A stretch of DNA of 59,757 nucleotides from Desulfoscipio geothermicus (lineage in GTDB: Bacteria; Bacillota; Desulfotomaculia; Desulfotomaculales; Desulfallaceae), in the NCBI GenBank assembly GCA_016841905.1, contig JAENYF010000017.1, positions 1-59,757 of the forward strand, given 5' to 3'. A program made the translations under genes and the position numbers. The notes under the pieces are model-generated. The model was given only the letters and a program-made list of their open reading frames with translations. It made no database searches and had not been told where the DNA came from. The first letter of the stretch is position 1; each line of letters opens with the position of its first letter. Shown here in pieces: positions 5,324 through 43,352 of the stretch.

Positions 5324-5544
5324 ATTTACCCCCACCTTTAAATGTTCATCTATTTTACTAGACGCCTAAATATGTCTTTTTGTTGCACTGTTTTGTACTT
5401 TTCCGCTGTTGCCTTAACGCCAGAGAAAAAAATTAACAAAATAGTTTGACAGCTAAGATTATTTATAATACAAACTGTTCTTGACATTATTATTAAAATA
5501 CTTTAATCTATTGGTAAAGTATTATAGGTATTAAGTGTATTAAA

Positions 5545-5637
5545 TATCTCCGAGTCTGGCAACCTAAACAAATGGTATGGTTGCCCGGCCATAGGGTACA
5601 CAGGGAAACTGGTGTGCCTCCCATTGCGGAAAGGGGA
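5545..5637 (+). ncRNA. Putative Moco/Tuco-type riboswitch aptamer 1
   Basis: The architecture seen is a closing stem TCTCC (5547-5551) with GGGGA (5633-5637), a second stem GGCAACC (5558-5564) with GGTTGCC (5579-5585), then GGCC at 5587, GGGAAAC at 5603 and CCATTGCG at 5621. These blocks recur with identical spacing in the next element, which supports a conserved RNA. From memory the CC[U/C]CCAUUGCG-AAGG block and stem order resemble the molybdenum/tungsten cofactor RNA motif. I could not run a covariance model, and the family name is less certain than the existence of a structured RNA. Confidence 0.55.
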
Positions 5638-5659
5638 ATTTAGCTTTTGCAAGGTTTTT

Positions 5660-5694
5660 AAAGCTTTGTCCTTTTTTGCATGTGGCAAAGCTTT
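5660..5694 (+). terminator. Terminator-like hairpin after aptamer 1
   Basis: AAAGCTTTG at 5660-5668 pairs with CAAAGCTTT at 5686-5694, followed by an AT-rich tract with several T runs. It could be the expression platform of the first element. Confidence 0.5.
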
Positions 5695-5712
5695 ATATAA
5701 TTTTATAGGGTG

Positions 5713-5810
5713 CTCTCTGGAGCCATATAACCTAAAACGATTCAGTCATGGTTTACTGGCCATTGGGCTCAATGGGAAACTGTTGCGCCTTCCATTGCGA
5801 GAAGGAGAGT
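5713..5810 (+). ncRNA. Putative Moco/Tuco-type riboswitch aptamer 2
   Basis: This is a second copy of the element at 5545-5637. The closing stem is CTCTC (5713-5717) with GAGAG (5805-5809), the second stem AACC (5729-5732) with GGTT (5750-5753), then GGCC at 5758, GGGAAAC at 5774 and CCATTGCG at 5792. The offsets from GGCC (16 and 34) are the same as in copy 1, while the stems differ in sequence but still pair, which is what a selected RNA structure predicts. The family assignment is tentative. Confidence 0.55.
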
Positions 5811-5817
5811 TGGATTC

Positions 5818-5871
5818 GGCATTTAATGCCGGGCTAGCTTTGCTTTACGCAACCTCTGCCCGGCTTTATTT
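5818..5871 (+). terminator. Terminator (and possible alternate hairpin) after aptamer 2
   Basis: GCCGGGC at 5828-5834 pairs with GCCCGGC at 5858-5864, followed by TTTATTTATTT. A competing hairpin, GGCAT (5818-5822) with ATGCC (5826-5830), shares the GCC arm, as expected of a switch between terminated and read-through states. Confidence 0.65.
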
Positions 5872-5956
5872 ATTTGTCGGTGCAATTTAATAAGCTGGCG
5901 AAGCGGTGTCTGGACAGTCTTAGGACTACTCAAAATTCTAGAGGTTGGTGGAGTAT

Positions 5957-7699
5957 ATGAAAGCAAATGAAATAATGGTTCCCATCAATGTATCATTGAA
6001 GCCTGATAGCACAATGAAGGATGCTCTGCTTGTTTTCCGCAGCACCAAGCTAACAGGAGTATCTGTGCATGATCAAGACGGGCGGTTAATTGGCATGTTT
6101 ACCCGCGATATTTTAGATGATTGCCTGCTTAAGGGAACTCACCTTGAAACTTGTATAAAAAAATATTACCTGCGTGAAATAATGTGCATTCGTGAGGATA
6201 TAACTATTAATAATCTTGCTGATATCATCAGCTGGCTGCGCAGCTCCCGTATTGTGCTGACCCCAGTAATTGATATTAATGGCCGGCCTGTTGGCATCAT
6301 AAACCACACTGATGCAATCAGTCAATTGCTTGACCACATTAGATTTACATACAAGGAAATAGCTGATATTTTTCAAAAAACACCCTGTGGGCTTGTGGCT
6401 ACCGATGTACAGGGAAAAATAACTTTAGTTAGCGTGTACCTTAAACAGACCTTGCCTAATATCCGAGTTGGCAAGCAAATTAAGGAATTATTAGCAGGCC
6501 TATCCTTTGAGAAAATCATCAATGGGGTATCTGCTGAACCCCAAAAGGTCAAGTTTTTTTCAAGAGATTTAATTGTCAATGGACTGCCGATGATGCAAGG
6601 AGGCAGGATAAACGGCGCGATTTTGCTCTTGCAAGAAACTGCAGCCATTTCGGCATCTAATCACAGCAAGAATGAAGAAAACAGGCAAGAATTATCTCTG
6701 GTAAATAAGCTTAAAGACAATAACCAGGTATTTAAGCCAAACGGCACTAAGTATACAATTGATTGTTTTATTAGTCAGAGCACCTGTATGGCCAAAATAA
6801 AAAGCCAAGTTTTGCAAGCCGCAAAAAGCTCTTCCACAGTGCTTATATGCGGTGAAAGCGGAGCTGGGAAAGAATTATTAGCCCAATCGATCCATAATGC
6901 CAGCAATCGTTATAAACGTCCCTTCATCAAGGTAGATTGTACAGCAATTTCTGCAGGGCTAGCCGAAATAGAATTGTTCGGCTACGAAGGAGGGGTGTTT
7001 ACAGGCGCTCTCAAGCATGGAAAACCGGGCCAATTTGAGCTGGCTGATGGTGGCACAATTTTTTTAGATGAAATTGGCAGTCTGCCCTGGTCCCTGCAAG
7101 GTAGATTACTGCGGGTGCTCCAGGAGAAAGAAATTGAACGGGTGGGGGGGATCACAACCAAGAAAATTGATGTCCGTATTATTGCTGCGACAAACCGGGA
7201 CTTGTATAAGCTTACTTTAGAAGGGCGGTTTAGAAAAGAGCTTTATTACCGGTTAAACGTTTTGGACATCACTATACCTCCATTGAGAGAGCATATTAAA
7301 GATATTCCTCTATTAGTCAATTACTTTGTAGATAAGTTTAATCAAAAATATGGCAAGCAAATTAAAGGCGTTACGGATGATACCATGGCTTTCTTTAAAA
7401 CTTATCAATGGCCCGGAAATATTGGGGAGCTGGAAAATGTTATTGAACGAGCCATTGCAGGCTGCCACCTTGATTTGATTCAAATTGATCTTTTGGGAAC
7501 TACTGCTTGGGAGCAAAATAAAAAACTGGAACACGTTGTTTTAGCCGAATCAACCAAAGAACTAGCCAGAGAGGCTCAGAAAAAGGCTATTGCAAATGCA
7601 TTGAAGATAACTAAGGGCAATAAGTCCAGGGCGGCTAAACTGCTAGGTATTAGCAGAACTACTTTATATGATAAATTAAAAACTCAGATTACTATGTAA
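5957..7699 (+). CDS. Sigma-54-dependent activator with CBS pair and PAS domain
   Basis: A 580-aa enhancer-binding protein that should use ATP hydrolysis to open sigma-54 promoters. Order: two CBS domains (about residues 1-120, often nucleotide-sensing), a PAS-like domain (about 125-225), an AAA+ domain (about 265-500) with Walker A GESGAGKE and Walker B GGTIFLDEIG, and a Fis-type helix-turn-helix at the C-terminus (SRAAKLLGISRTTLYDKLK). The sigma-54 contact loop reads GVFTGA instead of GAFTGA. I prefer ATG 5957 over the TTG at 5945, since GAGG and GGTGG lie ahead of it. The gene lies behind two tandem putative riboswitches, so its synthesis may respond to a cofactor. Target operons are not in this window. 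Confidence 0.9.
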   Translation: MKANEIMVPINVSLKPDSTMKDALLVFRSTKLTGVSVHDQDGRLIGMFTRDILDDCLLKGTHLETCIKKYYLREIMCIREDITINNLADIISWLRSSRIVLTPVIDINGRPVGIINHTDAISQLLDHIRFTYKEIADIFQKTPCGLVATDVQGKITLVSVYLKQTLPNIRVGKQIKELLAGLSFEKIINGVSAEPQKVKFFSRDLIVNGLPMMQGGRINGAILLLQETAAISASNHSKNEENRQELSLVNKLKDNNQVFKPNGTKYTIDCFISQSTCMAKIKSQVLQAAKSSSTVLICGESGAGKELLAQSIHNASNRYKRPFIKVDCTAISAGLAEIELFGYEGGVFTGALKHGKPGQFELADGGTIFLDEIGSLPWSLQGRLLRVLQEKEIERVGGITTKKIDVRIIAATNRDLYKLTLEGRFRKELYYRLNVLDITIPPLREHIKDIPLLVNYFVDKFNQKYGKQIKGVTDDTMAFFKTYQWPGNIGELENVIERAIAGCHLDLIQIDLLGTTAWEQNKKLEHVVLAESTKELAREAQKKAIANALKITKGNKSRAAKLLGISRTTLYDKLKTQITM

Positions 7700-7979
7700 T
7701 TAAAATTATAAGCAAGATCTAAGCAATGAGTATTAATTCTGCATGTTCATTTATTGAGTAAATGATGTCGGATGCAAGAGCGAGGCAATTTGCGCCGCGG
7801 ATGGAAGCTTTATTATTACCAATATACAGCTCAGGTAGGCTGGGGATGCGCTGGGGCTAAACGAAGCAGAGATTGAATGGTTGGCAGGCAGCAAAATCAC
7901 AGCAGTCATTTATATATTTATGTATCCTCATGAGCCAATATATCAGTACGTTAATTCAGTACAATCTCATGAGCAGTTT
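7700..7979. other. Intergenic, no supported gene
   Basis: Only short frames are present. One stretch around 7850-7930 reads protein-like (GLNEAEIEWLAGSKI) but is interrupted and unidentified. I do not call a gene. Confidence 0.4.
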
Positions 7980-8010
7980 AAAGACCGGTAGCGTATACCG
8001 GTCTTTGTTT
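7980..8010. terminator. Terminator between convergent genes
   Basis: AAAGACCGGTA at 7980-7990 pairs with TACCGGTCTTT at 7996-8006, followed by GTTTGTG. It ends the activator transcript and may also serve the convergent SPOCS gene. Confidence 0.75.
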
Positions 8011-38284: not shown

Positions 38285-38535
38285 GTAAAAATGTTATGAT
38301 GAGGAAAAGTAAACTCTGGCCGATTCCCAGAGAGAGGGTGACAGTGGCTGGAAGCACCTTTGAATGCGGGGAGTTGAAAACCACCTTTAAACAGCTGTAT
38401 GGAAACCATAGTAAATACAGCCGGTCGGCACCGTTACACGCCTTTTAAGTGAACCTTACGAGGTTTAAATCAGGGTGGAACCGTGGGATAAACAACCCGC
38501 CCCTGGCAGGAGCATGCCGGGGGCTTTTATTTTTC
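38285..38535 (+). promoter_or_regulatory. T-box leader of thrS (specifier ACC)
   Basis: A tRNA-sensing riboswitch. The T-box antiterminator core AGGGTGGAACCGTGGG lies at 38472-38487. The terminator pairs CCCCTGGCA (38500-38508) with TGCCGGGGG (38515-38523), then a T-run. Stem I carries AGAGAGGGTGACAG and CTGGAAGC. The likely specifier is ACC at 38380-38382 followed by A, a Thr codon, in agreement with the downstream gene. Uncharged tRNA-Thr should favour read-through. Confidence 0.93.
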
Positions 38536-42992: not shown

Positions 42993-43094
42993 TTTGGAGG
43001 CTGTTTGAAGCAACGGGTTCCATCCGGGCATATATGCTTTATAGAAGACTTGCTGTCCACTAGTGCACCAATAATTAATTGCAGATAATAAACG

Positions 43095-43352
43095 GTTATG
43101 AAGGGGATAAGTAAGCGGCTTTTTGCCTGCCAGGGAAATGAGGCCATAGACTGGAAGCCTCATTAAGTGCTAATTCCGCTCAAATTCACCCCGGAACTGC
43201 AGCTGAACTTTTTTAGTAGGTGTAGCCGGATTCTCGCCGTTACCGGGAGCCAGGCCGATAATAACTATGGCTCGGGTTAAGTGGTTGAGCTTTTTATGCA
43301 CTAAATTAGGGTGGTACCGCGGATTATTCCGTCCCTTGGGGCGGTTTTTTAT
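43095..43352 (+). promoter_or_regulatory. T-box leader of pheST (specifier TTC)
   Basis: The T-box core AGGGTGGTACCGCGG lies at 43308-43322. The terminator CCGTCCC (43329-43335) pairs with GGGGCGG (43338-43344), followed by TTTTTT. Stem I has AGTAAGCGG, AGGGAAATGAGG and CTGGAAGC. The likely specifier TTC at 43185-43187 is followed by A and decodes Phe, which matches the downstream pheS and pheT genes. Confidence 0.93.

Follow-up and report, generated by a model that had tools for sequence, protein, structure and literature searches.

Tandem P3-less Moco RNA elements upstream of a sigma-54-dependent activator gene in Desulfoscipio geothermicus

The leader and the activator gene

The DNA analysed here, referred to as the window, is a 59,757-nt stretch of the anaerobic bacterium Desulfoscipio geothermicus (assembly GCA_016841905.1, contig JAENYF010000017.1, positions 1 to 59,757). 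Near one end of it, two RNA elements of the Moco family precede the gene of a sigma-54-dependent activator, and each element is followed by a terminator-like hairpin:

5481..5509, + strand: promoter-like site TTGACA-17 nt-TAATCT, 5' of both elements, read from the sequence
5536..5652, + strand: Moco RNA aptamer 1 (RF01055), P3-less; cmscan 68.9 bits, E 1.5e-14, gathering score 36
5659..5695, + strand: terminator-like hairpin 1 (AAAGCTTTG/CAAAGCTTT) with a U-rich tail; -13.2 kcal/mol
5703..5823, + strand: Moco RNA aptamer 2 (RF01055), P3-less; cmscan 50.0 bits, E 5.4e-9, gathering score 36
5802..5845, + strand: candidate antiterminator, the P1 3' strand (5802-5813) paired with 5834-5845 and enclosing a hairpin at 5815-5830; minimum free energy (MFE) fold of the platform
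5828..5864, + strand: terminator-like hairpin 2 (GCCGGGC/GCCCGGC) with a U-rich tail; -18.6 kcal/mol
5957..7699, + strand: sigma-54-dependent activator of 580 aa, CBS-CBS-(PAS-like)-AAA+-Fis HTH, PrdR-like, from Pfam and the PrdR model

Elsewhere in the window, two T-box leaders (38287-38507 and 43089-43339) exceed their gathering score.

A preliminary description of this DNA had taken the two elements for tandem Moco/Tuco-type aptamers, and the search with the RF01055 covariance model bears this out. Both elements exceed the gathering score and align with the model from end to end, and the P3 positions are deleted in both. The three sequence blocks that had been noted at identical offsets (0, 16 and 34) are found at just two places in the window (5587-5628 and 5758-5799, + strand), and none of 100 shuffles reached two matches (shuffle mean 0.00). 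GGGAAAC is present in both elements, and P4 carries a GAAA tetraloop. The stems had been described as unlike in sequence and still able to pair; those of both copies do align to RF01055 despite their differing sequences, with some non-standard pairs in each.

Covariation was examined across the orthologous leaders and the other aptamers of the same genome, in a set of 38 P3-less aptamers made up of 10 from the activator's five leaders and 28 more of the own genome (whose 31st match, at 34.1 bits and under the cut-off, was excluded). In P1, P2, P4 and P5, 93.0% of cells were paired and both partners had changed in 13 of 24 pairs. The covariation score was 0.418 versus 0.223 after shuffling, a value reached by none of 500 shuffles, and slid partners gave at most 0.116; by a weaker measure, the count of pairs changed on both sides, 23 of 500 shuffles did as well. 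A chance motif is ruled out by the RF01055 scores, the covariation and the block-pattern shuffles.

The coding start of the activator was taken as the ATG at 5957, not the TTG at 5945 of the open-reading-frame list. Pfam matches Sigma54_activat (214 bits), HTH_8 (49.5 bits) and CBS in two stretches, and the protein has the AAA+ interaction domain, the GAFTGA-type loop and the Fis HTH of a sigma-54 enhancer-binding protein. It had been called a CBS-PAS sigma-54 activator, and all of this stands except the PAS part, for which Pfam gives no family at E 0.001; a PAS domain is nevertheless probably present, judging from the earlier annotation and from the PrdR model (NCBIfam NF041552), which aligns over nearly the whole protein. 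That alignment scores 398.2 bits where the cut-off is 795, and we do not assign PrdR identity.

Conservation and origin of the paired leader

A tree of 13 proteins separates an activator clade of six from seven others (G052, G005 and five paralogues). The clade contains the window protein and those of Sporotomaculum syntrophicum (G004, 92%), G002 (72%), G003 (71%), G011 (63-64%) and G014 (60-61%), where G002 and G003 are metagenome-assembled genomes (MAGs) labelled Desulfoscipio geothermicus and G011 is a Desulfotomaculum MAG. Five of the six members have a pair of Moco RNAs upstream of the activator gene; none was found upstream of the G014 orthologue or of any of the seven related genes outside the clade. 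A separate scan of 11 loci agrees with this distribution. The spacing between the two elements is 49-50 nt in four orthologues and 268 nt in G011. The same tandem-switch and activator arrangement is found in a named strain, S. syntrophicum strain FB. The hairpins are kept in four species, with an activator dS of 1.07 between the window and G002.

The own genome has two further leaders built to this plan, upstream of unrelated genes:

C13:58015-58298, - strand: tandem leader before a 286-aa frame
C33:19550-19838, + strand: tandem leader before a 258-aa frame

A promoter-like site similar to that at 5481-5509, which is itself absent from the output of a simple consensus scan, is seen in these two leaders and in those of S. 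syntrophicum, G002 and G003. In the aptamer tree, copies of aptamer 1 cluster together over four species and copies of aptamer 2 do likewise, so the pair predates the split of these species. In G011 the two aptamers are closer to each other than to any other copy, which suggests either an independent doubling or homogenisation. Since the C13 aptamers group with aptamers 1 and 2, respectively, the C13 leader was probably copied whole; for the C33 leader, no such copying is seen in the tree. A search of seven relatives, run as a query without a positive control, returned no homologue of the 286-aa protein behind the C13 leader. Behind 16 tandem Moco leaders in relatives, no sigma-54 activator was recognised in up to four frames each, as judged by eye on the first 60 residues rather than with an HMM.

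The claim that each element has its own terminator-like hairpin was confirmed, and its support comes from position and recurrence, since a simple consensus terminator scan of 5340-8000 found none. Each hairpin alone is just moderately unusual, with 3 of 60 shuffles equalling hairpin 1 and 1 of 60 equalling hairpin 2. Across seven tandem leaders, a terminator-like hairpin follows 13 of 14 elements (the first element of G011 is the exception), including all seven second elements examined, where it stands at the corresponding place. Hairpin 1 is resembled by those of S. syntrophicum, G002, G003 and the C13 leader; in the first position of the C33 leader, the hairpin is at the same place but of unrelated sequence.

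The second element had also been credited with a mutually exclusive alternative hairpin, which holds for some of the orthologues. The antiterminator partner at 5834-5845 falls inside the second terminator-like hairpin, and the alternative fold is the platform MFE in three of five orthologous leaders (window, S. syntrophicum and G003), whereas in the second elements of G002 and G011 the terminator is favoured. The duplex of P1 with the terminator region in window element 2 has -11.4 kcal/mol, reached by 31 of 300 shuffles; with 15 in S. syntrophicum, 15 in G003, 21 in C13 and 54 in G002 (of 300 each), the pairing is modestly better than that of shuffles, and in C33 (98/300) and G011 (151/300) it is no better. 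The corresponding pairing in six first elements was at shuffle level (51 to 221 of 300; window 93), and an antiterminator in element 1 was dropped.

The Walker A, GAFTGA and WPGNIREL motifs of such activators are usually conserved. At these three spots the window protein reads GESGAGKE, GVFTGA and WPGNIGEL, and that of S. syntrophicum reads GESGVGKE and WPGNIGEL but GAFTGA; the G002, G003 and G011 proteins have GESGTGKE or GETGTGKE, GAFTGA, and WPGNIREL or WPGNVREL. GVFTGA is confined to the window, the other 12 aligned sequences having GAFTGA. Against S. syntrophicum, dN/dS is 0.141 overall, 0.130 in the AAA+ domain and 0.070 in the HTH, which indicates purifying selection and weakens the idea of a degenerating activator despite the unusual motifs.

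Moco RNAs in the genome and putative targets of the activator

The own genome (3.08 Mb) has 31 Moco RNA matches, 30 of them above the cut-off; they span 103-124 nt, and no P3 is seen in the 30 that were aligned. At least one was found in 58 of 60 relatives, and 11 chosen relatives have 2 to 26 each. The highest count in the part of Regulski et al. (2008, PMC2408646) available to us is that of S. wolfei, with at least 15 against the 31 here; PMC9481103 may give a higher one. The family, the P4 GAAA tetraloop, the terminator-type platform and the P3-less, tungsten-linked subtype are as in that work, while the targets named there are transporters, biosynthesis genes and enzymes rather than a transcription activator.

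Several of the own-genome Moco RNAs precede surface-type proteins with SLH, cohesin, cell-wall-binding 2 or Shr-like domains; other downstream genes encode ApbE, Fe-S oxidoreductases, a BtuC/FecD-type permease, and tungstate/molybdate uptake. One surface-type protein of 1326 aa (L032:4688-8668), the second gene behind its Moco RNA, combines a weak Oxidored_molyb match (27.2 bits) with Shr-like and Cu_amine_oxidN1 domains. This switch class has another target of regulatory type, a PAS-GGDEF-HD signalling protein: a Moco RNA precedes its gene at C88 of the own genome (L037:6614-8949, the frame running off the contig) and at G003:C50:3476-6640, where it is one 1305-aa frame; the C57 copy of the gene (L038:9529-11716) is split into frames of 384 and 258 aa. 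At G000:C74:79329-79452 (L031:7330-7453), a Moco RNA of 74.7 bits with a terminator-like hairpin has only frames of 46 and 41 aa starting on the same strand within 1.5 kb, and the next frame of at least 120 aa lies 2.7 kb on; this is possibly a stand-alone RNA.

Gene neighbourhoods suggest that the activator's targets may be Mo/W oxidoreductase genes. In G052 a molybdopterin oxidoreductase gene (683 aa) directly follows the related activator, with only an imperfect promoter in the intergenic gap (TAGC for TGGC), and in G014 such a gene (686 aa) precedes the activator. On the G011 activator contig, a sigma-54 site of the form TGGCAYN5TTGCW precedes both an AOR gene and a formate-dehydrogenase-like (FDH) frame pair. 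The two upstream regions share 90.7% identity across 344 nt, and TGTATGAAAATC lies upstream of the -24 element by 112 nt (FDH) and 123 nt (AOR). This contig has six more Moco RNAs, of which one is directly 5' of moeA and another precedes the FDH promoter by about 0.5 kb. Also in G011 (L081:10-654, - strand), two cobalamin riboswitches are found about 225 nt apart on one strand.

A candidate binding site comes from a 57% paralogue at C62 of the own genome, which is without a Moco RNA and adjoins an acyl-CoA-ligase-like gene. Between the two genes is a sigma-54 promoter that relatives share; a palindromic site lying 69 nt upstream of it may serve as a model of what this regulator family binds. 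At C64 of the own genome, a homologue of the G052 oxidoreductase (62% identity) stands behind a sigma-54 promoter, TGGTATAGAAGTTGCT, and has an AOR gene 0.68 kb downstream. The upstream site there, at 111 nt, scores 6.6, a value reached by 18 of 361,246 scanned positions (0.011 expected in the 220 searched). Several results count against this regulon. The site model is derived from the paralogue, and the paralogue itself may be what binds such sites. Of 30 sites scoring at least 5.5 in the scanned sequence, four are near a sigma-54-like match, and two of these are C62 and C64. On the ungapped matrix, the scores of the G011 sites are low (-3.4).

A genome-wide pattern count and a promoter search at AOR/molybdopterin loci also count against it. 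The pattern TTGTNTGANNNTCANACAA, allowing up to two mismatches, was counted in seven genomes against its reversed control (among them G000, 8 versus 7; G002, 18 versus 14; G004, 11 versus 14) and was rejected as a genome-wide regulon test because the counts are close to those of the control, although the site of the paralogue itself was among the matches. A scan of the own genome with TGGCAYNNNNNTTGCW gave 10 sites versus 2 in the control, none of which could be linked to this activator. A relaxed sigma-54 pattern was absent upstream in 9 of 13 own-genome AOR/molybdopterin loci and matched at L090, L093, L100 and L101, the L100 match being the C64 promoter. Longer upstream stretches contained four sigma-54-like sites with a frame close behind, and the only one in keeping with the start of a gene for a Mo/W enzyme is that at C64.

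Proposed mechanism and alternatives

Same-class riboswitches in series are an established form. Tandem Moco RNAs were described in S. wolfei and Geobacter metallireducens, with putative terminators on the first two members of the S. wolfei triple (PMC2408646), and 13 doublets and two triplets are reported in PMC9481103, which includes tandem Wco switches 5' of genes unrelated to cofactor synthesis. The term used there for a same-class tandem is a pseudo-cooperative arrangement, and a like proposal had been made for the S. wolfei triple (PMC2408646). The present leader agrees with these in having complete same-class switches in series, each with a separate expression platform, and by its sequence it is consistent with the pseudo-cooperative type. 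It differs in what follows: the S. wolfei triple precedes an operon for cofactor synthesis and transport and the Wco doublets stand before, for example, hydrogenase and arsenic-response genes, whereas here the gene is that of a sigma-54 activator. We found no report of a Moco or Wco riboswitch before such an activator in the portions of open-licence PMC papers available to us. The riboswitch family and its tandem form are, then, known, and the kind of target seems to be new.

In the available part of PMC2408646, P3-less RNAs are tied to the tungsten cofactor, in that 17 of 19 host organisms had genes indicative of tungsten-cofactor metabolism; the link is a correlation. Besides the lack of a P3 stem, which is the mark of this Tuco/Wco subtype, the own genome has the corresponding gene content, namely matches to the tungstate-binding proteins WtpA (425.5, cut-off 355) and TupA-like (234.9, below its cut-off of 400) and six to AFOR_N, the AOR N-domain.

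Starting from the observed order of the elements, their conservation, their family and the absence of P3, we consider it likely that the two switches act in series and that free molybdenum or tungsten cofactor stops synthesis of the activator mRNA at either one. A single transcript, probably starting near 5516, would meet aptamer and terminator-like hairpin twice over. Free cofactor, more likely that of tungsten, would bind each aptamer and stabilise P1. In element 2, a P1 so held would release the terminator from the antiterminator that uses the P1 3' strand; with this layout, a ligand that holds P1 would promote termination, making an OFF switch. The activator mRNA would be completed only where both switches are read through, that is, where free cofactor is low. 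One ligand read twice would give a sharper, steeper response with less leakage rather than two inputs, and the CBS and probably PAS domains of the activator would be left for a second signal at the protein level. The activator in turn may switch on sigma-54 promoters of Mo/W oxidoreductase genes.

One question then is whether the sign is correct. Given cofactor-needing targets, an OFF switch would let free cofactor shut down its own consumers; physiologically, it is odd for a cofactor to repress the activator of enzymes that use it, and the opposite sign could hold. Possible ways out of this tension are an ON switch, targets needed in times of shortage, or free cofactor as a sign that enzyme demand is met. 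With an ON switch, bound cofactor would block termination and turn on the activator, giving more cofactor-using enzymes in a feed-forward manner, which would be sensible for the putative targets. We regard this as unlikely, because the alternative fold of element 2, with the P1 3' strand as antiterminator, has the layout of an OFF switch and because the E. coli Moco RNA represses (PMC2408646).

Another pertinent question is how many signals are read. The preliminary description proposed a two-input logic gate, which we did not uphold: both aptamers belong to one Rfam family and share the P3-less subtype, the simplest interpretation being that a single ligand is sensed at two points, and the tandem form was already published. 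Guanine-PRPP tandem Boolean gates (PMC5912903) also have two aptamers per leader, but theirs bind different ligands and ours are of one class. A gate in which one element senses the molybdenum cofactor and the other the tungsten cofactor or a derivative would fit the separate grouping of aptamers 1 and 2 by position in four species, the altered core of aptamer 2 in those four (CUCUGAGCC or CUCUGGAGCC replacing CUCCGAG) and its lower score in the window and S. syntrophicum. The altered core leaves a small chance of a differing ligand preference. With family shared, with P3 lacking in both as the published mark of one subtype (PMC2408646) and with the G011 copies closest to each other, such a gate appears quite improbable. 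Least probable of all, in our opinion, is a relic or mobile cassette without sensing, the activator being expressed by leaky read-through. Three tandem leaders of one plan before unrelated genes in the own genome, the lower score of element 2 in two species and the motif changes in the activator could be taken that way; against it, the stems covary, the hairpins are kept in four species over the divergence given above, and the activator is under purifying selection.

Beyond the serial OFF switch, we suggest tentatively, and with more doubt than belief, a cofactor-gated sigma-54 regulon whose leader, with its promoter and two switches each ending in a stop, is a portable cassette copied before other genes. 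The doubled tungsten-cofactor riboswitch would set how much activator is made, and the activator would control Mo/W oxidoreductase genes. This would be an AND gate across two molecules, in which the RNA would sense the cofactor and the CBS/PAS activator a second metabolic signal.

The published Moco and Wco riboswitches, as far as the sources available to us describe them, act locally, on genes for cofactor, transport and enzyme functions. If the proposed mechanism is true, two switches on a sigma-54 activator would allow one cofactor pool to steer distant genes, and this leader would provide a concrete system for studying the ligand of P3-less Moco RNAs and the benefit of a tandem for the same ligand.
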